This document shows positions 8,092 through 22,634 of a DNA stretch of 24,503 nt, piece after piece. Positions within the stretch are counted from its first letter, which is position 1; every line of letters begins with the position of its first letter. The position numbers and the translations under genes were made by a program. Location: positions 1-24,503 of the IMG/VR virus record IMGVR_UViG_3300032893_000268; one strand, 5' to 3'. Source of the DNA: a virus. Under the pieces are notes generated by a model. That model ran no database searches. It was not told the DNA's origin and was given only the letters and a program-made list of their open reading frames with translations.

Positions 8092-8634
8092 TTACCTTTT
8101 CCTCATCAATTCGGTGATGGCGGCGTGCGCCTCGTCGCGGCTGGCCTTGATCGGGTCAGCGCCGAACTTGTTCCAGCTCGGGAATTCCCAGGTGGCGCCG
8201 TGCTGCGGAATCGGTTCCTCGCCGGGCGCGGGGCTGACGGGCGGCAGCGTCGCGGCATAGAGCGTCGCGCCATCCTCATAGTCACTGATGCCCTTCTTCT
8301 GCATCAGCGCCTCGATCGCCTTGACGTCGTCCTCGGAATACTTCCGGCCCTCGCCGTCGGGGCCGCCGGTCAGGAGCCGCGAGCGGGCGGCGTTCATGCG
8401 CGCCAGCATCTCGTCCTGCTGCCGCTTCAGATCGCGCGCTTCCTGCTCGGCCTTGAAGCTCTCAAACTGATCTGAAAGGTCAACATCCACAAAAGCTTGT
8501 GCATGGGGCGAGTCCGGGCGGGCCTTCTTGACCAGCTTGCCGATCTCCTTGCGGGTCTTCGGGTCGTGAGACAGCTCGAAGAACAGCTTTGCGAGGTCGG
8601 CTTGCGTGGCGGGATCGAGGTTCGGCGTGGCCAT
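8092..8634 (-). CDS. Scaffold-like head assembly protein (180 aa)
   Basis: Highly charged, largely helical protein. Residues about 10-40 are a helix with LAKLFFELSHDPKTRKEIGK; about 55-90 form a likely coiled coil (FESFKAEQEARDLKRQQDEM); about 100-120 read YSEDDVKAIEALMQKKGISD; the C-terminal part contains WEFPSWNKFGADP. Immediate position upstream of the major capsid gene, size, charge and coiled coil are those of phage scaffolding proteins, which direct shell assembly and then leave or are degraded. No protease motif seen. The role is an inference from these traits. Confidence 0.8.
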   Translation of the reverse strand: MATPNLDPATQADLAKLFFELSHDPKTRKEIGKLVKKARPDSPHAQAFVDVDLSDQFESFKAEQEARDLKRQQDEMLARMNAARSRLLTGGPDGEGRKYSEDDVKAIEALMQKKGISDYEDGATLYAATLPPVSPAPGEEPIPQHGATWEFPSWNKFGADPIKASRDEAHAAITELMRKR

Positions 8635-8646
8635 GTCGCATCAACC

Positions 8647-8859
8647 TCAGATCGGCTTGCCGCGCTGAGCGGTCGGGCCGCCGCGCTCCAGCGACGGCGC
8701 GCCGGTGCGGTCGCGCTCGCCGGAGGGATTGGTCAGCTTGGCCTCGCTCGTGAAGCCGCCGAGCTGGGTGTAGGTCGGCGGATTGCGGAACTGGCCGTCT
8801 TCCATGCGGCGGGTCGACAGATTGCCGACACGAACCTTCGGACGGAGGAAATCGGTCAT
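8647..8859 (-). CDS. Small polar phage protein (70 aa)
   Basis: Starts MTDFLRPKVRVGNLSTRRME and is rich in Arg, Gly, Pro and Thr with no hydrophobic helix, so probably extended or partner-folded. ATG 8859 overlaps the TGA of the preceding 143-aa gene by four bases, evidence of coupling. It is directly before the scaffold-like gene. No family recognised. Confidence 0.75.
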   Translation of the reverse strand: MTDFLRPKVRVGNLSTRRMEDGQFRNPPTYTQLGGFTSEAKLTNPSGERDRTGAPSLERGGPTAQRGKPI

Positions 8860-9374: not shown

Positions 9375-9846
9375 GCCACGCATGATCCTGCGCTCCTGGA
9401 TTTGCGAGAATTCGCGCTGCGGCCACTGGTTCGACGCCTACGAGGCGAACCCGGCCTGCAGCAAATGCGGCTGCGTCCGCGTCTCATGGCGCCCGAACGG
9501 CGGCCATGTCGGCGGCAAGGGAAAGGGCGCCGAGCAGGAACTCCGCGCACTCGCCGACATCTTCAAGATGACCGACATGAACTCGGCCGAGGAAGGCCGC
9601 GCGGCGAAAAAGGTCCGGCTGCCCGATGCGCCGGCGGCTAACGGCGGCACAGTCAAGACTTTTGCCGGAGGATTTGCCGCGGCGATCGATCCCACGCAGC
9701 CAGCCTATAACGGCGCGCAGTGCGTGCCGACGGCGAACAAGATCGACTACAAGGTCAAGGCTACGCCGGGCTCGCGGCTCGCGCCGAACGGATCATTCCC
9801 CGGCGTGCGCTCGAACACCTCGATCGAAGGGGTGCATAAGGGATGA
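9373..9846 (+). CDS. Zinc-ribbon phage protein preceding portal (157 aa)
   Basis: The N-terminal 35 residues hold a C-x4-C-x12-C-x2-C ribbon (WICENSRCGHWF ... CSKCGC), expected to bind one zinc ion. Then follow SWRPNGGHVGGKGKG, a helix with AEQELRALADIFKMTDM, and a disordered C-terminal half. It is the first gene of a plus-strand cassette and its TGA overlaps the portal ATG (ATGA), so the two are co-translated. No Shine-Dalgarno is seen before ATG 9373 or the in-frame ATG 9382; the promoter candidate favours the second (154 aa). It might be a minor head protein or a regulator; the sequence does not decide. Confidence 0.82.
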   Translation: MPRMILRSWICENSRCGHWFDAYEANPACSKCGCVRVSWRPNGGHVGGKGKGAEQELRALADIFKMTDMNSAEEGRAAKKVRLPDAPAANGGTVKTFAGGFAAAIDPTQPAYNGAQCVPTANKIDYKVKATPGSRLAPNGSFPGVRSNTSIEGVHKG

Positions 9847-11597
9847 TCATCCCCGAGGGATCAGGCCAAGCCGAATGGCTCCGCTGGGTGCTGGACATCT
9901 GCTTGAACTCGCAGAAGGACCGCAAGGACCTGTACGATCGCCGCAAGCAGTATTTCCTGTATGGCACCGCGAGCGATCAGGAGATCATCTACAACAGGAT
10001 CGAGTCCCACCTCGACCTCGTCTCCTCGTTCCTCTACGCCTCCGACAGCGCCCAGTTTGCCCTGTCAGCCCCGCTGAATGCCAGCGACGAGGAGGTCAAG
10101 CAATACATGGCCGCGCAGGATTCGTTCAACAACGACTTCCGCGACGCCGGCCTGTTCGACTATTTCGGCGACTCCATCGTCGGATCGCTTACCTACGACT
10201 CGATGTTCATCAAGATGGGCTGGTCCGACGTCAACGAGGACGCGACCGCGACGATCGTCGAGCCATGGAAATTCGGCGTGTTCTCCGAGGAGATCACCGA
10301 GCTCGAATCCCAGCCCGCCTTTGTCCACAGCTATCACATCGACTACGACAACGCCTGCCAGCGTCTGACGCGCGCCGGCCTCTCTGCGCTGATCCCGAAA
10401 CTGAACGTGGTGAACACGCCCTTCCAGTCGCCCTTCCCCGAGCTGATCACGCGCATGATCATCGCCTCGACCTCGGGCGAGAACCTGATGGGCAACGTCA
10501 CTGGCAGCGTGAACCCCTCCTATGCCGGCCGGCCCACCTATCAGGCCAAAGTCGACCGCCCGCTGGTCGCCTTCCACGAACTCTACATCTGGGACGACGA
10601 ATGCACGGACTATCGGGTGTTCTGGATCATCGACCCCGACATCGTGATTGCGGATTCGAAGAAGACGATCAAGGCGCTGAAGGCGGCCAAGGGCTTCAAG
10701 CCGCAGCGCGAGCAGCAGGCCCCGTTTTACGACACCGAGTGCAATCCGTTCTTCCCCCGCGAGCAGCCGTTCGTGCACATCCGGCCCTACAACATCTACG
10801 AATATTTCTGGGGAAAAGCCCACATCGAAAGCCTGATCCCGCTGCAGGAGTGGTCGAACGAGCGGCTCGAGCAGATCCACGACATCCTCGACAAGCAGGC
10901 CTACCCGCCGCGGGTCGGCTCCGGCTTCATGGGTCTGTCGGACGAGAAGATGGAGGCCTTCGGCGGCGCCGATTCCTGGGTGATGGACCAGCTGCCGCAG
11001 GCCTCGATCAAGGAACTCACCCCGCAGATGCCGGACGACATCTTCGCCGACTACGGCCAGATCGGGCAGCTGTTCATCGAGGCGTCGGGGCTCACAGAGG
11101 TCATCCAGGGCAAGGGCACCGAGGGCGTGCGCTCGCGGGGCCATGCCAAACAGCTGGCGTCGACCGGCTCGGGGCGGATCAAGAAGGCGGCGATGCGGCT
11201 GGAGGGTCCGCTGGTTCGCATGGGCGATCTCGCGTTCAAGCTCAACATGCGCAACAACAACAACCCGATCACGCCGGACCCGAAAGAGGACGGCAAGCCG
11301 GGCGACCCGTTCTACTATGCGAATATGGTAGGCGAGTACAATCTGCGCATCGCCGGCCACTCGCACTCGCCGCTGTTCGTCGACGACACCAAGGAGATGG
11401 CGGCGGGGCTATTCAAGGCGCAGGCGATTGATCAGGAGGGCCTGATCCGGCTGCTCAATCCGCCGAACCGCGACAACCTGATCCATCAGCTGAGGACGCG
11501 GCAGAAGGCGGCGGCGAAGGCCAAGATGATGCAGGCGCAGATGGGCGGGCCGCCGGCCAAGCCCAACGGAAAGGGCGGCCATGCCGCGCACGCCTAG
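9843..11597 (+). CDS. Portal protein (584 aa)
   Basis: Portal proteins form the dodecameric DNA gate at one capsid vertex and dock terminase. Evidence: size; the opening RKDLYDRRKQYFLYGTASDQ followed by a domain describing region SLTYDSMFIKMGWSDVNEDA; a stem/clip-like stretch with IYEYFWGKAHIESLIPLQEW and LEQIHDILDKQAYPP; and SGLTEVIQGKGTEGVRSRGHA, all typical wording for portals of podovirus-like phages. The C-terminus is a basic Ala/Lys-rich helix (RTRQKAAAKAKMMQAQMGG), usual in portals. It overlaps the zinc-ribbon gene by four bases. The odd fact is orientation: it is on the plus strand while terminase and capsid genes are on the minus strand. Confidence 0.9.
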   Translation: MIIPEGSGQAEWLRWVLDICLNSQKDRKDLYDRRKQYFLYGTASDQEIIYNRIESHLDLVSSFLYASDSAQFALSAPLNASDEEVKQYMAAQDSFNNDFRDAGLFDYFGDSIVGSLTYDSMFIKMGWSDVNEDATATIVEPWKFGVFSEEITELESQPAFVHSYHIDYDNACQRLTRAGLSALIPKLNVVNTPFQSPFPELITRMIIASTSGENLMGNVTGSVNPSYAGRPTYQAKVDRPLVAFHELYIWDDECTDYRVFWIIDPDIVIADSKKTIKALKAAKGFKPQREQQAPFYDTECNPFFPREQPFVHIRPYNIYEYFWGKAHIESLIPLQEWSNERLEQIHDILDKQAYPPRVGSGFMGLSDEKMEAFGGADSWVMDQLPQASIKELTPQMPDDIFADYGQIGQLFIEASGLTEVIQGKGTEGVRSRGHAKQLASTGSGRIKKAAMRLEGPLVRMGDLAFKLNMRNNNNPITPDPKEDGKPGDPFYYANMVGEYNLRIAGHSHSPLFVDDTKEMAAGLFKAQAIDQEGLIRLLNPPNRDNLIHQLRTRQKAAAKAKMMQAQMGGPPAKPNGKGGHAAHA

Positions 11598-11809: not shown

Positions 11810-11998
11810 CTAATCGTAGAATTCCACATCAGGAATGTCAGGCTTGGGCGCCGGCCAAACGCGGCGATATTGGTCGAAACATACCGGAATCCCCATAATA
11901 CTAGACCGACGACGGTCCTTCAGGATATCGTCCATGTCCTCCGTCTCGATCCTGCGGAGAAGATATTCGATGCTTCCAATCGTGATTCTGGCTTTCAT
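11810..11998 (-). CDS. Small protein downstream of terminase (62 aa)
   Basis: ATG 11998 overlaps the terminase TGA (ATGA). The protein starts MKARITIGSIEYLLRRIETE, a short beta then helix, continues with a basic stretch DILKDRRRSS, and ends with Pro/Asp-rich VWPAPKPDIPDVEFYD. No membrane segment. A longer frame from 12133 is open, but its first 45 residues shadow the terminase. Function unknown; a terminase-linked accessory role is possible. Confidence 0.75.
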   Translation of the reverse strand: MKARITIGSIEYLLRRIETEDMDDILKDRRRSSIMGIPVCFDQYRRVWPAPKPDIPDVEFYD

Positions 11999-13860
11999 GT
12001 CGGAACCGTGATGTTCATCCGCTTCAGGTAGCCCTGAATGATACGCTCGGTCGGCGGCGTCCCGCCCTTCTCCTCGATCTCGTGGCTCTTGTCGAGCGAC
12101 AAGCCCAGCATCTTCACCTTCGGCTGCACCCACGAGTTAAACGCCTGCCACGCCAGCGCGGCCGCCATCACCCGGTCATCCTTGCCGCGGCCCTCGGCGC
12201 CGATCGTGCCGCCGTTGTTGACGATGCGCTGCATCTCCTCCAGAAGCGGCATCGAGCGCGGGATCATGCGGTGCAGCTCGATCGCGTTCTTCATCTGGTT
12301 GAGCGCGCGGGTCTTGAGGTCGTGCGTGGTCTTCCACTGAAACAGCATCTCGCCACCGCCGGGATTGTCCATGCGGCGGTAGAAATAGTGACGCATGTTG
12401 GCGAGGATGTTCGCAAGGTGGTAGTTCTCGTCGTGCGGGCGAATCTCGCTCGCCATCCTGCGTACCTTCTCGAGCTCGTCGAACACGGCCTGACCGGGCC
12501 CGTTCATCTCCAGAATTGGCATCAGGAAGGTGACGCCGAAGTATCCGGCCAGATGAGCAAGGACCCATGCGCACTGGTAAGTCGATGGCTGGGTAGAACA
12601 ATATTCGGCGACTTGCACAAGACAATCCGAATAACACCGCCAGATGCTAATGACTGTTCGATCTGCTTCGTCTGATGATCCGTAAGCTGGATCACAACCC
12701 AAGGCGTAGTATCCGAATCGGGTGGGCTGCTCCCAGATTCGCAGTTCTGCTCTGGTGTCCTTGACCTGCCTGACCTCTGTCTCATCAAACTTCATCCCGA
12801 GCTTGTAGCGGAAGGTCTGGAACGCCTGCTTCTTGGCGTAGCGCATGCAATCGGTCAGCGCCTCCGCGGTGAAGAAGTTGGAGCCTGTCGCCTGGAACGC
12901 ATCCTCCGGCACCCATGGATATTCCTGGTCCATCAGCGACTGGTCGCCGCCCTTCTCCGATTCCAGATGCCACCGATACCAGGCGATCTGCTGCAGCGAC
13001 ACCTCGAAATTGAACTGCTCCCTCACCTCCCGCACGCGCTTGCGCTCCAGCGGCGTCAGCGACGTCTTGATGCCCTGCGGCATGTACACCGAGAAGAACG
13101 GATGCGACACCGGGAACTGGTTCCGCTCGTCTCGCCACCAGCCGATGAAGATGAAGCACTTGGTCGGATCAGACTTCGCATCCTCGCACATGTCAGCGAA
13201 ATGATTGAACCCGTTCGCCGTCGACTCGTAGATCTGCAGCCGGTGCGGATACAGCGATGACATCTGCGAGCGGAATTCGCCTAGGTCCTCGCCGTTGCCG
13301 TAGAAGGCGGTTTCTGTTGAGTGCAGATAGTTGGCTGCGCCGCCGCGCCCAAGGCCGCCCCGCTTTGTCTCCGAAGTTCCTGCGATGAGGTAGCGGTAAC
13401 GGGAGCCGTTTTTGAGGATGAGCAGGTTGCGGTTGTGCCGTACGTAATTAATGCGGAATTTTGCTGGTGTCTCCGCAAAAAAGACTTCAACTGTCGCCCT
13501 GAAGTCATCCCTCGCCTCCTCCTTGTGCGTCATGAACACGCCCAGCAACCCCTTGTACTCGAACGACCAGAACATATCGAGCGCCAGGAAAAACGTGGAG
13601 ATGCCAGCCTGTCGGTTCTTCAGGATGATAAAAACCGTCACCCCCTTCGCCAACCCCTCGACGATGTTCTCCAGCACCCACCGCTGCGACCCGAGCAGTC
13701 GAAACGGCACCAACCCGAAATCCTTGCTCTGGACCTTCAGTCGCGACAGAAACGCCATGAAGCGCTCCGTCGGGAACGGCGCCACCCCCTTGTATTCGAG
13801 GGTGAAGGCGCCGTCTTCCATCTCGCTCGTGGGTAGCGGGAGATCCTCATCGTCGGTCAT
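11995..13860 (-). CDS. terL: Terminase large subunit (621 aa)
   Basis: Packaging motor ATPase and headful/site nuclease that pumps DNA through the portal. Residue positions from ATG 13860: a Walker A-like loop near 79-88 (ILKNRQAGIS, the Q/A-rich form found in many TerL), Walker-B-like/catalytic region HSTETAF near 180-186, then the RNase H-fold nuclease with D390 in GCDPAYG, E451 in LEMNGPG and D561/D562 in GKDDRVMAAALA. Length is typical. The start was chosen because ATG 13860 overlaps the TGA of the upstream gene (ATGA); an extension to 13914 adds 18 residues that shadow it. No separate small-subunit terminase is recognised nearby. It converges on the portal gene across the 11775-11806 terminator. 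Confidence 0.93.
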   Translation of the reverse strand: MTDDEDLPLPTSEMEDGAFTLEYKGVAPFPTERFMAFLSRLKVQSKDFGLVPFRLLGSQRWVLENIVEGLAKGVTVFIILKNRQAGISTFFLALDMFWSFEYKGLLGVFMTHKEEARDDFRATVEVFFAETPAKFRINYVRHNRNLLILKNGSRYRYLIAGTSETKRGGLGRGGAANYLHSTETAFYGNGEDLGEFRSQMSSLYPHRLQIYESTANGFNHFADMCEDAKSDPTKCFIFIGWWRDERNQFPVSHPFFSVYMPQGIKTSLTPLERKRVREVREQFNFEVSLQQIAWYRWHLESEKGGDQSLMDQEYPWVPEDAFQATGSNFFTAEALTDCMRYAKKQAFQTFRYKLGMKFDETEVRQVKDTRAELRIWEQPTRFGYYALGCDPAYGSSDEADRTVISIWRCYSDCLVQVAEYCSTQPSTYQCAWVLAHLAGYFGVTFLMPILEMNGPGQAVFDELEKVRRMASEIRPHDENYHLANILANMRHYFYRRMDNPGGGEMLFQWKTTHDLKTRALNQMKNAIELHRMIPRSMPLLEEMQRIVNNGGTIGAEGRGKDDRVMAAALAWQAFNSWVQPKVKMLGLSLDKSHEIEEKGGTPPTERIIQGYLKRMNITVPT

Positions 13861-14075
13861 GTGCACCAACGATCGAAATCGATATCCCTCGTCGTCAGCG
13901 CCGCGCGTGCGCACCCGGCAGGATCCGCGCAGGTGCCGGTGGAGATCGCCAGAAGAACTCGCTGGTGCAGGCCATCCTCAAACGAGTGAGCCACCTCATC
14001 ATCGCGCGCGATCGATCGAATCCTCTCCACCTCGGACAGGACCTCCTCGACCGTCAAGGTGACATCAACTGCCAT
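13857..14075 (-). CDS. Small protein upstream of terminase (72 aa)
   Basis: MAVDVTLTVEEVLSEVERIR opens an amphipathic helical protein; a second helix follows around EDGLHQRVLLAIS, and the tail has two Cys in TCADPAGC. The start ATG 14075 has GGAG about 11 bases upstream; a longer frame to 14150 adds Arg-rich residues and lacks a ribosome site. Its TGA overlaps the terminase start, showing coupling. Position directly before TerL would fit a small-terminase replacement or an accessory protein, but it is shorter than usual TerS and has no visible HTH. Confidence 0.75.
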   Translation of the reverse strand: MAVDVTLTVEEVLSEVERIRSIARDDEVAHSFEDGLHQRVLLAISTGTCADPAGCARAALTTRDIDFDRWCT

Positions 14076-14489: not shown

Positions 14490-14756
14490 CTAAGAGCGGC
14501 CCCGCTCGGGGGAACTCTGCGGGGTAGAGCGGGGTTCCGATCTTACACCGCCCATCTGATCACACTGCATCGCCGCGGTGAGAAGGACACGGGCTTGTGG
14601 GCCGAGTTTGCGTTGTCCGCCGGCGATCCTGTGCAGGTGTTCGCGGGACAATCCAGCGGCCTCGGCAAGCCTGCTGAAGGACTGTTTGGTTCTATCGGAC
14701 CAGGGCGAGTGCCGGATGGTCTTGAGCCGGCGGATGATCTCTTGGTCGGAGAGCAT
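14490..14756 (-). CDS. HTH-containing phage protein (88 aa)
   Basis: Residues about 26-55 read SFSRLAEAAGLSREHLHRIA followed by GGQRKLGP, a clear helix-turn-helix with the turn at AAGLS and the recognition helix SREHLHRIA. The fold is typical of Cro/XRE-like small regulators, though the wing and dimer region after it is short and polar. It is coupled to the upstream 55-aa gene (TGA, one base, ATG). Likely DNA-binding; target unknown, possibly the palindromes in the region immediately downstream. Confidence 0.8.
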   Translation of the reverse strand: MLSDQEIIRRLKTIRHSPWSDRTKQSFSRLAEAAGLSREHLHRIAGGQRKLGPQARVLLTAAMQCDQMGGVRSEPRSTPQSSPERGRS

Positions 14757-15977: not shown

Positions 15978-16206
15978 GCCTGTTTCGTTCCGGCGGGTTG
16001 AGGTGCTGTTCGACCTCAAATTTCACGTCGCGCCACAGACTTCGCATGGTCCAGATGAAGTGTTCCTCTGGCGCATCCATGTCGATTACTGCGGATATTT
16101 GTAGCACCTCATTCTCGTTGCATTGGCAACGATAGCGCAGAGATGCGACCAGGGGATTGTGCCCTATCGCGCTCAGTGCATGGCGTTGTTGTAATCTGTG
16201 AGTCAT
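15946..16206 (-). CDS. Small phage protein (86 aa)
   Basis: MTHRLQQRHALSAIGHNPLV opens; then RYRCQCNENEVLQISAVIDM and WTMRSLWRDVKFEVEQHL. ATG 16206 overlaps the stop of the HTH gene (ATGA), so I take this start. The end overlaps the start of the 78-aa gene by 32 bases. The mixed pattern is consistent with a small alpha/beta protein; no family recognised. Confidence 0.7.
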   Translation of the reverse strand: MTHRLQQRHALSAIGHNPLVASLRYRCQCNENEVLQISAVIDMDAPEEHFIWTMRSLWRDVKFEVEQHLNPPERNRHEKPNASATP

Positions 16207-16616
16207 GTCATCACCTTCGCTCTGGACGGATTCCTGTGCCGCTCGGCAAACGCCACCGCAATCAGCTGCAGCCTCGCCCGGTCTTCCTTGCTCATATCCT
16301 GCATCGCCCGCGTAACCGTGCCGATCGTCGGATGAGTATAAAGCTTGCTCAACAAGTCAAACTGCTCCCCCCGCCCGTCAAATCCATCCTCCCGCTCGCC
16401 GAGCAGCGCCGACGTCGTGGTATTCAGCGCCAGCGCAATCCGATGCAGCGTGGCCGCCGGCGGATGCCCTTCCCCGCGCTCGTACAACCCGTATTGCACC
16501 TTGCTGATCTCGGCGGCGGCTGCAACCTGCGGCTGGGTTCGGCCGATGTGGATGCGCCGGGCCTTCATCCGGCGGCCCAGTTTGCGCAACAGCTCCATGG
16601 GGCGTCTTTTCGGCAT
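16203..16616 (-). CDS. XRE-family HTH regulator (137 aa)
   Basis: Residues 7-60 hold an XRE helix-turn-helix: MELLRKLGRRMKARRIHIGR, then TQPQVAAAAEISKVQYGLYE and RGEGHPPAATLHRIALALN, the typical Q-x-x-x-A-x-x-x-x-I-S ... Y-E-R-G pattern. The C-terminal half is helical (LLSKLYTHPTIGTVTRAMQD) and probably mediates dimerisation. The ATG overlaps the upstream stop (TGATG). It lies late in the early leftward operon, so it may regulate the switch to late genes; that is inference. Confidence 0.85.
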   Translation of the reverse strand: MPKRRPMELLRKLGRRMKARRIHIGRTQPQVAAAAEISKVQYGLYERGEGHPPAATLHRIALALNTTTSALLGEREDGFDGRGEQFDLLSKLYTHPTIGTVTRAMQDMSKEDRARLQLIAVAFAERHRNPSRAKVMT

Positions 16617-19287: not shown

Positions 19288-19356
19288 ATCGGTGATGCTC
19301 GATGCATTTGAGCCGGCTTCCTGCCGTGAAGGACGCAATGCACGCTTACAAACTAA

Positions 19357-19641
19357 CTAATCGCGCTGGTGAAAGCGCTTCATGATCTCGGCGAGGATGA
19401 CGCCAAGAGCTTCGGCCGGCGGTTCCGTGTCACCCGCCAACCATCGGCGGCAGGTGCGCGCGTCGTAACCGGTGAGATGTGAGAGAGAAGCCTCGGCCTT
19501 ACGCGGCCAGGCAAAGCGAGCAAGATCGCCAAAACTGATCCGCCCCGCATCAATCGGGATGACCTTCCGGACATTTCTGTCCGTGCGTGTCGAATCCTGA
19601 CCGTCGATTTTCTGCGGGTTTTCCCCAACAACAGCACGCAT
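19357..19641 (-). CDS. Small phage DNA-binding protein (94 aa)
   Basis: The first 30 residues are polar; the core reads ISFGDLARFAWPRKAEASLS, then HLTGYDARTCRRWLAGDTEP and LGVILAEIMKRFHQRD. L-x-x-x-T-G-Y-x-x-x-T-x-R-R-W is the turn and recognition helix of a helix-turn-helix protein often found early in rhizobial phages. The ATG has a GGGG ribosome-site core seven bases upstream. Inverted repeats of TGTCCG lie inside it (19568-19583) and upstream (19768-19781). Likely regulatory. Confidence 0.75.
   Translation of the reverse strand: MRAVVGENPQKIDGQDSTRTDRNVRKVIPIDAGRISFGDLARFAWPRKAEASLSHLTGYDARTCRRWLAGDTEPPAEALGVILAEIMKRFHQRD
19568..19583. repeat. Inverted repeat CGGACA-N4-TGTCCG
   Basis: Perfect six-base arms with a four-base spacer TTTC, within the 94-aa gene near its start. 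A mirror-order copy of the same arms occurs at 19768-19781. Confidence 0.6.
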
Positions 19642-19939
19642 CGAACGCCCCTACTCATACGCAACTGACACGAAGGATACGAAGATGATCTCGATCGCTC
19701 TGCACGCGAAAGTGCGTAACGCCGCCGTATTTCTACGGGGGAACTATCGTCCTGATTTGGCACATGTTGTCCGCCCGGACACACTCGTGACGGATTCATG
19801 TCAAGAAGTCGAAATGCTACTTGCACGCGAGAACGGCAAAGGATTGCATCCGCCTGCGTCGTTTTCGCCAACAAGGAAAAATCACGATGACTGGGAATGG
19901 GAATGTGGTAATTCGCCCACGTATTCGCGCCTGGAAACG
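19642..19939. other. Gap inside early leftward operon
   Basis: 298 bases between the 80-aa and 94-aa minus-strand genes. It contains the palindrome TGTCCG-CC-CGGACA and an isolated TTGACA on the minus strand (19804-19799) without a good -10 box. On the plus strand an ATG at 19685 has AAGGA nearby, but its frame has mixed third-position GC and runs antisense into the 80-aa gene, so I do not call it. No RNA gene was recognised. Confidence 0.55.
19768..19781. repeat. Palindrome TGTCCG-CC-CGGACA
   Basis: Perfect six-base arms, two-base spacer, in the gap upstream of the 94-aa gene. Arms are the same as those at 19568-19583 in opposite order. Possible operator for a second early regulator. Confidence 0.55.
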
Positions 19940-20182
19940 TCATGCCCGGACCTCAAAGAAAGGCCGCGGGATGTCAGATGGCCATGCAGTGTCGGCCGGC
20001 CAGTGCTCAGAGAACCATCGCAAAGCCTCTTCGAGGCGCCCGACTGTGATATCGGATCCGGTCTCCAACGCGCGGAGTTTCTTCCCGTCATTGAGGACTC
20101 GCGAGGAGACCGTCGAAAGCGGAACGCCCTCGATCTCTCCATACCGGCGCGCGATGCGAAGCAGTTCGTCTATGGCTGACAT
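19940..20182 (-). CDS. Cro-like small regulator, first gene of leftward operon (80 aa)
   Basis: MSAIDELLRIARRYGEIEGV, then PLSTVSSRVLNDGKKLRALE and GSDITVGRLEEALRWFSEHW. The PLSTVSSRV-L-ND-G-K-K-L segment is a helix-turn-helix recognition helix, with an amphipathic C-terminal helix for dimerisation. Size and position opposite the repressor across shared operators are those of a Cro. The promoter's -10 box ends seven bases before ATG 20182 and no Shine-Dalgarno exists, so the mRNA is probably leaderless. Cro role is inferred. Confidence 0.8.
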   Translation of the reverse strand: MSAIDELLRIARRYGEIEGVPLSTVSSRVLNDGKKLRALETGSDITVGRLEEALRWFSEHWPADTAWPSDIPRPFFEVRA

Positions 20183-20188
20183 GGGCGC

Positions 20189-20217
20189 AATATCGGTAAA
20201 CGTACCGGTCTTGTCAA
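20189..20217 (-). promoter_or_regulatory. Leftward early promoter with operator in its spacer
   Basis: On the minus strand: perfect TTGACA (20217-20212), 17-base spacer, GATATT (20194-20189). Operator O1 (20193-20208) fills most of the spacer, so bound repressor would block polymerase. Confidence 0.75.
20193..20208. promoter_or_regulatory. Operator O1
   Basis: TCGGTA-AACG-TACCGG. Five of six outer positions fit the CCGGTA-N4-TACCGG consensus. Inside the leftward promoter. Confidence 0.75.
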
Positions 20218-20232
20218 CGGTAAACTTGCCGA
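20217..20232. promoter_or_regulatory. Operator O2 (imperfect)
   Basis: ACGGTA-AACT-TGCCGA, a degenerate copy centred 24 bases from O1, at the edge of the leftward -35 box. Confidence 0.5.
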
Positions 20233-20250
20233 ATGCGCGGGAGGCCGATT

Positions 20251-20266
20251 CCGGTCATTCTACCGG
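20251..20266. promoter_or_regulatory. Operator O3
   Basis: CCGGTC-ATTC-TACCGG, ending one base before the repressor ATG at 20268; binding there would act on repressor expression itself. Confidence 0.65.
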
Positions 20267-20267
20267 T

Positions 20268-20585
20268 ATGGACCTCAAAGTTCTCATCGCGAACATAGAC
20301 CGGCTTGTGAAGGCCCAGCGGACGACCGACAACGCCGTCGGCATCAGAGCCGGCAAGCAGGACGCAATCCGGAATCTCCGCCGCTATGCCAGCGGGGATC
20401 TTAAGGGAATGTGGACGCTCGACACGCTCGAGGCCGTGGCTAAGGCTCTCGGCACCTCTTCTTGGGAGCTTCTACGGCCGCCTGGCGCCGTTGCCGCAGA
20501 CGAGGACCTCGAAGACCGTATCAATCGCGTGCTCGACCAGCGCCTAGGACCGGCTGAACCGGTACGGAAAAGAAAAAATCGGTAG
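20268..20585 (+). CDS. Phage immunity repressor, CI-like (105 aa)
   Basis: MDLKVLIANIDRLVKAQRTT, then DNAVGIRAGKQDAIRNLRRY and LDTLEAVAKALGTSSWELL: an XRE helix-turn-helix with the recognition helix around KQDAIRNLRR. A short helix EDLEDRINRVLDQRLGP follows, then a basic tail RKRKNR. It has no S24/LexA-like peptidase domain, so RecA-driven self-cleavage is not expected and induction must work otherwise. Five CCGGTA-N4-TACCGG sites flank the gene. GGGAGG lies 23 bases upstream, too far for a normal start, and O3 abuts the ATG. The frame continues upstream to 19821 but only as a shadow of the 80-aa gene. Confidence 0.8.
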   Translation: MDLKVLIANIDRLVKAQRTTDNAVGIRAGKQDAIRNLRRYASGDLKGMWTLDTLEAVAKALGTSSWELLRPPGAVAADEDLEDRINRVLDQRLGPAEPVRKRKNR

Positions 20586-20598
20586 GGCTACCGATTTT
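20575..20598. terminator. Hairpin at repressor stop: terminator plus operator O4
   Basis: AAAATCGGTA-GGGC-TACCGATTTT: ten-pair perfect stem with a four-base loop and A/T flanks on both sides, so a bidirectional intrinsic terminator is possible. Its core TCGGTA-N4-TACCGA (20579-20594) also fits the operator consensus. It includes the repressor's TAG. Confidence 0.7.
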
Positions 20599-20600
20599 GC

Positions 20601-20629
20601 TTGACCGGTAGGAATACCGGATTTATGGT
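20601..20629 (+). promoter_or_regulatory. Rightward early promoter with operator O5 in its spacer
   Basis: TTGACC (20601-20606), 17-base spacer, TATGGT (20624-20629). O5, a perfect CCGGTA-GGAA-TACCGG (20605-20620), lies between the two boxes, the same geometry as O1 in the leftward promoter. Confidence 0.75.
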
Positions 20630-20631
20630 GT

Positions 20632-20650
20632 CTCCAGCAAATCGCTGGAG
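20632..20650. repeat. Inverted repeat at the start of the rightward operon
   Basis: CTCCAGC-N5-GCTGGAG, perfect seven-base arms. The right arm includes most of the GGAGG Shine-Dalgarno of the next gene. If transcription starts near 20636 the full hairpin would not be in the RNA, so a protein-binding site is the other possibility. Confidence 0.6.
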
Positions 20651-20656
20651 GCACCC

Positions 20657-20899
20657 ATGTCCGCGCACTGCATTCACACACCGACCCCCTCCTATTTCGT
20701 CGTGATGATCGACTATGGCCGCCGCGGCCGTGAAGCGGTCGTCGACCCCGAGGTCACCCGCCGCGAGGTGATAGATCGCATCCGTTCGCGCGAGTATGAG
20801 CCGATCGCGTTCATCCACGAGGTCGTCGACGGCCACGCCTCCGACGTCACGAACGAGCTGCTCAAGGAAGCCGGCTTCTACGATCTGGAGTTCGTGTGA
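20657..20899 (+). CDS. Small phage protein, first gene of rightward operon (80 aa)
   Basis: GGAGG lies five bases before ATG 20657, an excellent ribosome site. The protein reads MSAHCIHTPTPSYFVVMIDY, then RRGREAVVDPEVTRREVIDR, then IAFIHEVVDG, a compact alpha/beta pattern. It follows the regulated rightward promoter directly, so it is the first product made after derepression. I do not recognise a function. Confidence 0.82.
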   Translation: MSAHCIHTPTPSYFVVMIDYGRRGREAVVDPEVTRREVIDRIRSREYEPIAFIHEVVDGHASDVTNELLKEAGFYDLEFV

Positions 20900-21087
20900 T
20901 GGACTCCCCCAAGATCACCACGGCGCTCGAAGTCGCCATCCTCGCCAAGTGCCTGCCCGACATCAACGCGGCGGCCGACCTGATCCAGCAATACGCCAAC
21001 ACGGTTGCGGCTGGGCAAAAGCTCGAGGCGAGCATCGCGCTGCGCAACCGCATCTTCGCAAAGCTGGAGGGCGGCACCGGTGCGTGA
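20899..21087 (+). CDS. Small helical phage protein (62 aa)
   Basis: ATG 20899 overlaps the upstream TGA (TGATG). MDSPKITTALEVAILAKCLP leads into helices ADLIQQYANTVAAGQKLEA and LRNRIFAKLEGG. A GTG three bases earlier is a possible start but less likely. Function unknown. Confidence 0.75.
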   Translation: MDSPKITTALEVAILAKCLPDINAAADLIQQYANTVAAGQKLEASIALRNRIFAKLEGGTGA

Positions 21088-21193
21088 GGTCCTCCACGAG
21101 ATCATCTCCGATCTGCCAGAGGCGATGTTCTGCGCCGCGGCTGTCGGTGTTTTCATCGGCGCAATCTTCGTCTGGTGCGGAGTGCTGGCATGA
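21080..21193 (+). CDS. Single-span membrane microprotein (37 aa)
   Basis: GTG 21080 has GGAGG eight bases upstream, inside the preceding gene. The short product starts MREVLHEIISDLPEAMFCAA and ends with a hydrophobic run [16 protein letters not shown], one likely membrane helix with N-terminus inside. A longer frame from 21005 has only shadow sequence. Its stop overlaps the next ATG. Possibly a superinfection or membrane-associated factor; unproven. Confidence 0.6.
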   Translation: MREVLHEIISDLPEAMFCAAAVGVFIGAIFVWCGVLA

Positions 21194-21402
21194 GGTGCTC
21201 GTTCCGCAACAATCCGGCGCAGCGGCGCTGCATCATTGAGGCCACGATCGATCACCTCCGGCCGTTCCGGCGCGGGTATGCACGATCCAAGGCGGGCCCG
21301 TTCTTCAGCCTGCGCACCGTTCAAATCCTGCTCGATGTCGGCGCGCTGCGATGGGTGCAGACCTGCGGCCGGATCAGGTTTCTCACAGCGAGGTCTCAAT
21401 GA
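21190..21402 (+). CDS. Small basic protein (70 aa)
   Basis: ATG 21190 overlaps the preceding [43 protein letters not shown] and [20 protein letters not shown]. Arg-rich with three Cys; a winged-helix-like C-terminal pattern ([16 protein letters not shown]) is possible. Stop overlaps the RecT ATG. Confidence 0.75.
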
Positions 21403-22634
21403 ACCTTCCAGCAATTCGACCCGATCAGCAGGTCTCCCGCTTCACACCGGATCAGGTTGATCTGATCAAGCGCACGATATGCCGGGATTCCACGAACGAT
21501 GAATTCCAGTTGTTCATGTATCAGTGCGAGCGCACCGGCCTCGACCCGTTCGCCAAGCAGATTTACGCAATCAAACGATGGGATAACCAGCTGCTCCGCG
21601 AGGTCATGGGTATCCAGACGTCGATTGACGGGCTGCGGTTGGTCGCCCAGCGTAGCAAGGAATACGCCGGCCAGGCTGGGCCGTTCTGGTGCGGGCCCGA
21701 TGGCGAATGGCGTGACGTATGGCTGGCCAGCAATCCGCCAGCTGCTGCCAAGGTCGGGGTTCTTCGCAAGGGCTTCAAAGAGCCCGCATGGGGCGTCGCG
21801 CGCTGGTCTGCATACGCGCAGACGAAGAAAAACGGAAGCGTGACCATGATGTGGGCGCGCATGCCCGACTTGATGCTCTCAAAGTGCGCCGAGGCGCTGG
21901 CGCTGCGCAAGGCGTTTCCGCAGGAGCTGTCCGGCCTCTACACCAACGACGAAATGGCATCCTCCAAGCGCGACGACGATCGCGATCCCGAGGAGATTAT
22001 CGAGGCCTGGGGCGAGAAGCGCGGTGCTGGCCTGATCAATGCGGTGGTGCAGACCGCTCCTCGGCGTGAGGAGGAGCCGACCGAGCTCTGGACTGAGGAC
22101 GGCGAAACCCCGCCGGAATGGCAAGGCGATAAATGGGAAGCCCTCGGTCCGGTTAAGCAGTCTGGCATTCTCGCTGAGGATGAATCCTTCATCAAATACG
22201 TGAACGAAGCATTCAAAATGGAGATCGACGCTAACGGCAGCGCTGCTGATTTTATCCGGAACGTATGCAAGGTTTCCTCTCGCAGAGAGCTGGCAACCAA
22301 TGAAGGCGCGAGAAAAGTCTGGCGCATTCTCGTTGAAAAATATCGCGCTTGGCAGCGAGAGCCCGAGATTATCGAACCCGTTTCGCCGCATCCAGCGGCG
22401 GAAGCAGCCGCCCCGGTCCGCTCCCAGCCCCCAGCCTCCGAGACCGGGGCGGCTGACGACAAAACCGCCGCCGAGTGGGACGTCGAACTCGGTGAGGCCG
22501 CAAAGCAAGGGATGGCTGCGCTGCAGGCGCTCTGGTCTCAGATCCCCGCCGAACACAAGCCGATGCTGAAGGCCGCGCTCGATCGCCGCCACAAGCCGAC
22601 AGCCAACGCAGCAGATGCGAGGGCACCAGCATGA
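21399..22634 (+). CDS. bet: RecT/Bet-family single-strand annealing recombinase (411 aa)
   Basis: Bet/RecT proteins bind single-stranded DNA and anneal it to complementary strands during phage recombination and replication. Residues about 15-185 carry the family wording: [129 protein letters not shown]. This is a near-perfect Bet core. The C-terminal half is a charged extension with a [11 protein letters not shown] segment, a proline/alanine linker and a final helix ([20 protein letters not shown]), longer than typical Bet (about 260 aa). ATG 21399 overlaps the upstream TGA. The matching exonuclease is not in the window. Confidence 0.92.

Follow-up and report, generated by a model that had tools for sequence, protein, structure and literature searches.

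We propose, with a probability of roughly 0.9, that positions 20,189 to 20,629 of the window (the whole 24,503-nucleotide stretch analysed here, a 24.5-kb viral record taken as a partial contig) hold the core of an immunity (lysis-lysogeny) switch of a temperate tailed phage, which, judged from its sequence, would follow the lambda-type cI/cro plan with three OR and two OL sites; the phage probably infects alphaproteobacteria. A repressor gene and a cro-position gene diverge with operators between them, and the same operator overlaps two opposed early promoters, OR on one side and OL on the other, whereas the C-terminal S24/LexA-like domain of lambda-type repressors is missing from the window's protein. 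The parts, all lying within about 450 bp and so forming a compact natural switch, are as follows, together with the start of the rightward operon.

19940 to 20182, minus strand: cro-position gene (P0001), 80 aa, of PHROG 7669, a family without assigned function; four-helix model
20189 to 20217, minus strand: predicted leftward promoter PR, TTGACA-17-GATATT, over O1; found at the same place in relatives
20193 to 20208: O1 (OR1-like), TCGGTAAACGTACCGG, core CGGTAAACGTACCG at 20194-20207, inside the spacer of PR
20217 to 20232: O2 (OR2-like), ACGGTAAACTTGCCGA, core CGGTAAACTTGCCG at 20218-20231, abutting the -35 element of PR
20251 to 20266: O3 (OR3-like), CCGGTCATTCTACCGG, core CGGTCATTCTACCG at 20252-20265, directly before the repressor ATG
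20268 to 20585, plus strand: repressor gene (cI-like; P0002), 105 aa, with an XRE/lambda-repressor-type helix-turn-helix (HTH) and one C-terminal helix, no S24 domain
20579 to 20594: O4 (OL2-like), TCGGTAGGGCTACCGA, core CGGTAGGGCTACCG at 20580-20593, holding the repressor stop codon and able to form a hairpin
20601 to 20629, plus strand: predicted rightward promoter PL, TTGACC-17-TATGGT, over O5
20605 to 20620: O5 (OL1-like), CCGGTAGGAATACCGG, core CGGTAGGAATACCG at 20606-20619, inside the spacer of PL
20627 to 20655, plus strand: 12-bp leader stem-loop, spanning the end of the PL -10 element and the Shine-Dalgarno sequence of the first PL gene
20657 to 20899, plus strand: first gene of the PL (rightward early) operon, without assigned function

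The five sites that the first-pass annotation had reported all lie where it placed them (starting at 20193, 20217, 20251, 20579 and 20605), and its view of them as operators of a phage immunity region is supported by what follows. The motif it gave, CCGGTA-N4-TACCGG, is exact in O5 only; the real core is the 14-mer CGGTA-N4-TACCG, which is perfect at 20194, 20580 and 20606 and carries one mismatch at 20218 (O2, TG for TA in the right arm) and at 20252 (O3, C for A at position 5). A scan of the whole 24.5-kb contig returned no perfect copy beyond these three, and none of 2000 dinucleotide shuffles of positions 20150-20650 reached three or more perfect sites or five or more one-mismatch sites. 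Chance palindromes were considered as an explanation of O1 to O5 and are ruled out by the shuffles and by conservation. A literature search with the operator strings, in which subscription literature lay mostly outside the search, returned no phage paper.

Both promoters were called by consensus match only, and the scan from 19300 to 21500 gave just these two σ70-like promoters, pointing outward over O1 and O5, so the earlier claim that the two operators occupy promoter spacers in the same geometry holds. The predicted transcription start of PR coincides with the ATG of the cro-like gene, which itself lies 12 nt from the O1 core. Leftward of that gene are RusA-like, replication and structural genes, and the PL operon runs through small genes to recT (21351-22634). 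The leftward operon also contains two small HTH genes, one above the Pfam cut-off (16203-16616, minus strand) and one below it (14490-14756, minus strand), which are possible secondary regulators or antirepressor candidates; Pfam gave nothing above cut-off for the 94-aa gene at 19357-19641. Within the structural block, a portal-like gene (9843-11597, plus strand) and terminase-like and tail-side genes (11995-13914, minus strand) stand in an unusual inversion.

Close relatives found by protein searches carry all five sites at the same spacing. Two further scans were each blind to one half of the cassette. The first ignored proteins and searched viral contigs for pairs of perfect operators separated by 8-18 bp; it yielded 53 loci, and a PHROG 7669 homologue is present in 39 of the 53 contigs (30 plus 9 further); of the 14 left over, five contain a similar palindrome in tandem arrays. 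Separately, we observed that two contigs with no cro homologue contain long arrays of a CGGTA-N4-TACCG-type palindrome with a 24-bp period (L045, positions 1108-1770; L012, positions 8491-8721). The second scan ignored operators and used the short-repressor alignment as query; it returned 21 viral loci, one of which (L090) was set aside because its C-terminal piece alone had matched. Related phages that share the gene had been named at the outset as the place where missing repeats would count against the proposal, and the repressor ATG of each of the other 20 viral homologues proved to be preceded, at about -74, -50 and -16, by operator-like sites, some of which have two or three mismatches. 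Among genome contigs, a scan for the short repressor gave one match, likewise with operators, in a MAG labelled Salinibacterium (L070; SCSV01000188.1). Where phages and plasmids with the cro family have a named host, it is alphaproteobacterial, which makes the actinobacterial label doubtful, and the cassette contig is possibly mis-binned.

The resulting set of 12 short-repressor loci, one of them from this bacterial MAG, displays a rigid geometry. In all 12, O1, O2 and O3 lie at exactly -74, -50 and -16 from the repressor ATG, the stop codon falls within O4 and the step from O4 to O5 is 26 bp; TTGACCGGTA at PL is retained in 12/12 as well. Across these loci, the arms of O1, O4 and O5 do not change, unlike the four bases at their centre; O2 and O3 show recurring departures from symmetry, and the O3 of L073 has three mismatches. 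Nothing beyond the cro-like gene, OR, the repressor and OL is consistently shared, and flanking genes mostly differ; the cassette thus appears to travel as a module.

We then considered the two proteins. For the window's 105-aa repressor, Pfam returned no match above cut-off and thus no recognisable cleavable domain and no S24, in line with what the first-pass annotation had said of it; HTH_3, HTH_26 and HTH_31 are found in some of its homologues. Its structure model consists of an HTH domain and one less confident C-terminal helix (residues 79-92), and it matches the DNA-binding domains of P22 c2, 434 repressor and 434 Cro (Foldseek probability 1.0, E 0.02-0.1), which places a lambda-repressor/XRE fold in the N-terminal domain by model match. 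The 105-aa protein gave no match when searched directly against annotated phages; in the annotated phages that have a cro homologue, four repressors bear the label CI, phage repressor, Cro/CI family or putative transcriptional regulator, and two are called hypothetical. The gene on the other side of OR had been missed by the earlier description of a circuit around one gene. Its 80-aa product is the best conserved part of the cassette, all 27 aligned cro-position homologues match PHROG 7669, and those in annotated phages are called hypothetical. Pfam gave no match above cut-off for this protein, and the family profile gave no significant match among PDB sequences. The four-helix model is confident (pLDDT 91), and it matches the fold of XRE-type proteins weakly (best Z 5.2, Foldseek E about 1), so its putative DNA binding is suggested by position and co-occurrence.

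Which of the two proteins would read the operator? Five residues of the repressor HTH (D32, I34, R35, N36 and R39) are invariant or nearly so over 25 operator-sharing repressors that are 23-85% identical to the window's, and the D.(I/L)RN pattern is retained in annotated phages with CGGT-type sites; Aurantimonas AmM-1, with a related CGG-armed repeat, keeps IRN. Different residues occupy these positions in two phages with other operator sequences (L068, L069); named examples of annotated phages with cro homologues, different inverted repeats and other residues here are Rhodobacter RC1 and Rhizobium RR1-A. Within this small sample of annotated phages, the pattern argues that the operator arms are read by the repressor itself. 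It is nevertheless possible, if on balance doubtful, that only one protein, the cro-like one or the repressor, uses these sites and that the other binds elsewhere or not at all. The stronger conservation of the cro-like protein and its presence beside the operator in 39 of the 53 contigs would fit such a division, and so would phiKO2, where CB and Cro bind different sites, Cro at OR3 only (PMC4997575). Against it stands the constancy of the recognition region D.IRN..R over divergent operator-sharing repressors, and some cro homologues (L067-L069) accompany other operator sequences, so that the operator is not tied to the cro-like protein alone. We retain binding by both proteins as the working assumption of the proposed switch. 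Should repressors with as little as 23% identity to the window's all recognise this operator, homoimmunity would extend across very different phages.

The short repressor itself invites a second alternative, namely that the 105-aa gene is the decayed repressor of a phage turned lytic and that the sites are remnants. The window protein does lack the S24 domain, and no integrase was found in the partial 24.5-kb contig. Yet the short form (103-126 aa in 12/12 members) constitutes one clade with 99/97 support in a tree built on the N-terminal domain, and its members keep an intact reading frame and all sites at identities to the window's repressor down to 34%. Moreover, an integrase or serine recombinase gene is present in five viral contigs of the clade and scores above the family cut-off in four. 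Decay is thus very unlikely, and the monophyly of the short repressors fits a single loss of the C-terminal domain; a few other short repressors (L016, L064) do not belong to this clade. Across the family as a whole, the repressor that follows this OR is usually about 180-260 aa long, in many cases with S24, and OL lies farther away; Peptidase_S24 (the LexA-like C-terminal domain) was detected in 10 of the 25 repressors aligned, and LexA chains and, weakly, lambda CI chains are matched by the A2 profile. That the repeats are iterons or centromere-like sites for replication or partition is scarcely credible: plasmid-like phages too have repeated palindromes near a small DNA-binding protein, and L012 and L045 carry their arrays without a cro homologue, but here the sites are locked at fixed spacing to opposed promoters and to the repressor ATG and stop codon in 12/12 loci, and S24 (LexA-like) repressors occupy the same place in many relatives.

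Returning to the immunity switch, its operation can be sketched as follows. The 105-aa HTH repressor and the divergent 80-aa protein would both bind the 14-bp CGGTA-N4-TACCG operator. In the prophage, repressor on O1 and O2 would cover PR and with it leftward replication and late genes, and repressor on O5 and O4 would cover PL and the rightward recT operon. O2, whose centre lies about 43.5 bp upstream of the repressor ATG, appears placed to help polymerase at a weak leaderless repressor promoter with a -10 element overlapping O3, and filling of O3 would turn the repressor down; during lytic growth, the cro-like protein would act at these operators against the repressor. Leaderless translation is suggested because O3, as the first-pass annotation had noted, ends just before the ATG at 20268 and leaves no room for a Shine-Dalgarno sequence. 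CATTCT, at 20256-20261 within O3, could serve as the -10 element, and there is no clear -35. In 12/12 short-repressor loci, O3 shows C or T in place of A at position 5 and A at position 6, and 25/27 long-repressor relatives likewise have A at position 6; if the repressor mRNA is leaderless, these would be positions -12 and -11 of the -10 element, with an operator T at -7.

At the other end of the gene, O4 encloses the TAG stop (20583-20585) and, on the plus strand, folds into a 10-pair hairpin. This part of the initial description stands, whereas a terminator role is weak, since the U-run is part of the stem with no separate U-run after it on the plus strand, and the longer A/U-flanked stem varies and is not retained in every relative. 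A second hairpin lies in the PL leader: in 12/12 short-repressor loci it occupies the same place, from the end of the PL -10 element to just before the first start codon, its 3' arm includes a Shine-Dalgarno-like sequence in 11/12, and among relatives the sequence changes while pairing is kept. Long-repressor PL leaders had z < -2 in 16 of 23 cases and control PR leaders in 3 of about 26, after two misassigned rows had been reassigned by hand. The 5' arm contains the predicted PL start, so that the full stem would form only in RNA that enters from upstream; the hairpin may act as an insulator that blocks translation of read-through RNA from the repressor gene. This resembles the arrangement at phage T4 gene e, where stem-loops inhibit translation from early transcripts (PMC3014915).

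A repressor without the C-terminal S24 domain is not expected to undergo RecA-stimulated self-cleavage, which implies another induction route, for example an antirepressor. It is tempting to speculate, though we hold the full scenario to be rather improbable, that this phage clade lost the C-terminal domain of its repressor while retaining the complete OR/OL geometry and moving OL onto the stop codon; cooperativity would then come from the C-terminal helix or from DNA spacing, the inducer would be non-SOS, and the PL leader hairpin would ensure that only PL-initiated RNA, not repressor read-through, expresses the lytic operon. Taken together, CGGTA-N4-TACCG offers a testable operator code common to many phages, alphaproteobacterial where a host is named, a likely cro function can be put on PHROG 7669, and the repressor of this switch appears to have lost the domain that gives lambda its cooperativity and SOS induction.

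Compared with lambda, 434 and P22, the switch has the same divergent repressor and cro genes with three sites between them and more at the opposite early promoter; its operators likewise sit in promoter spacers, and its repressor starts beside OR3. The 434 operator is likewise 14 bp long with a 4-bp centre. In lambda, too, OL and OR flank cI on either side, so that the initial wording "lambda-like but two-sided" draws a contrast where there is none. The differences are the operator CGGTA-N4-TACCG, a repressor of about 105 aa without a C-terminal domain, an OL directly at the repressor stop codon with two sites where the lambda type has three, and a PHROG 7669 protein in the place of cro. The operator also differs from that of Rhizobium phage 16-3, which is 434-like (ACAA-N4-TTGT). 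Phage 16-3 is likened to ours by description only, as a temperate alphaproteobacterial phage with a C repressor-operator immunity system (PMC10460002). The layout of three OR and two OL is that of immB in the telomere phages phiKO2 and N15: phiKO2 has three OR between repressor and cro and two OL on the repressor's other side, a further two-sided precedent, but operator sequence and host group differ, and phiKO2 Cro binds OR3 only (PMC4997575). Gifsy prophages have a small non-cleavable repressor of 136 aa and are induced via LexA-controlled antirepressors (PMC3121763); against these, no such antirepressor was identified in the window's partial contig, and a scan there for the alphaproteobacterial-type SOS box GTTC-N7-GTTC, the one LexA box covered, found none. 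The short repressor without an autocleavage motif is nonetheless shared with Gifsy (103-126 aa here, 136 aa there; PMC3121763), and it is this shortened repressor that sets the window's switch apart within the lambda kind.
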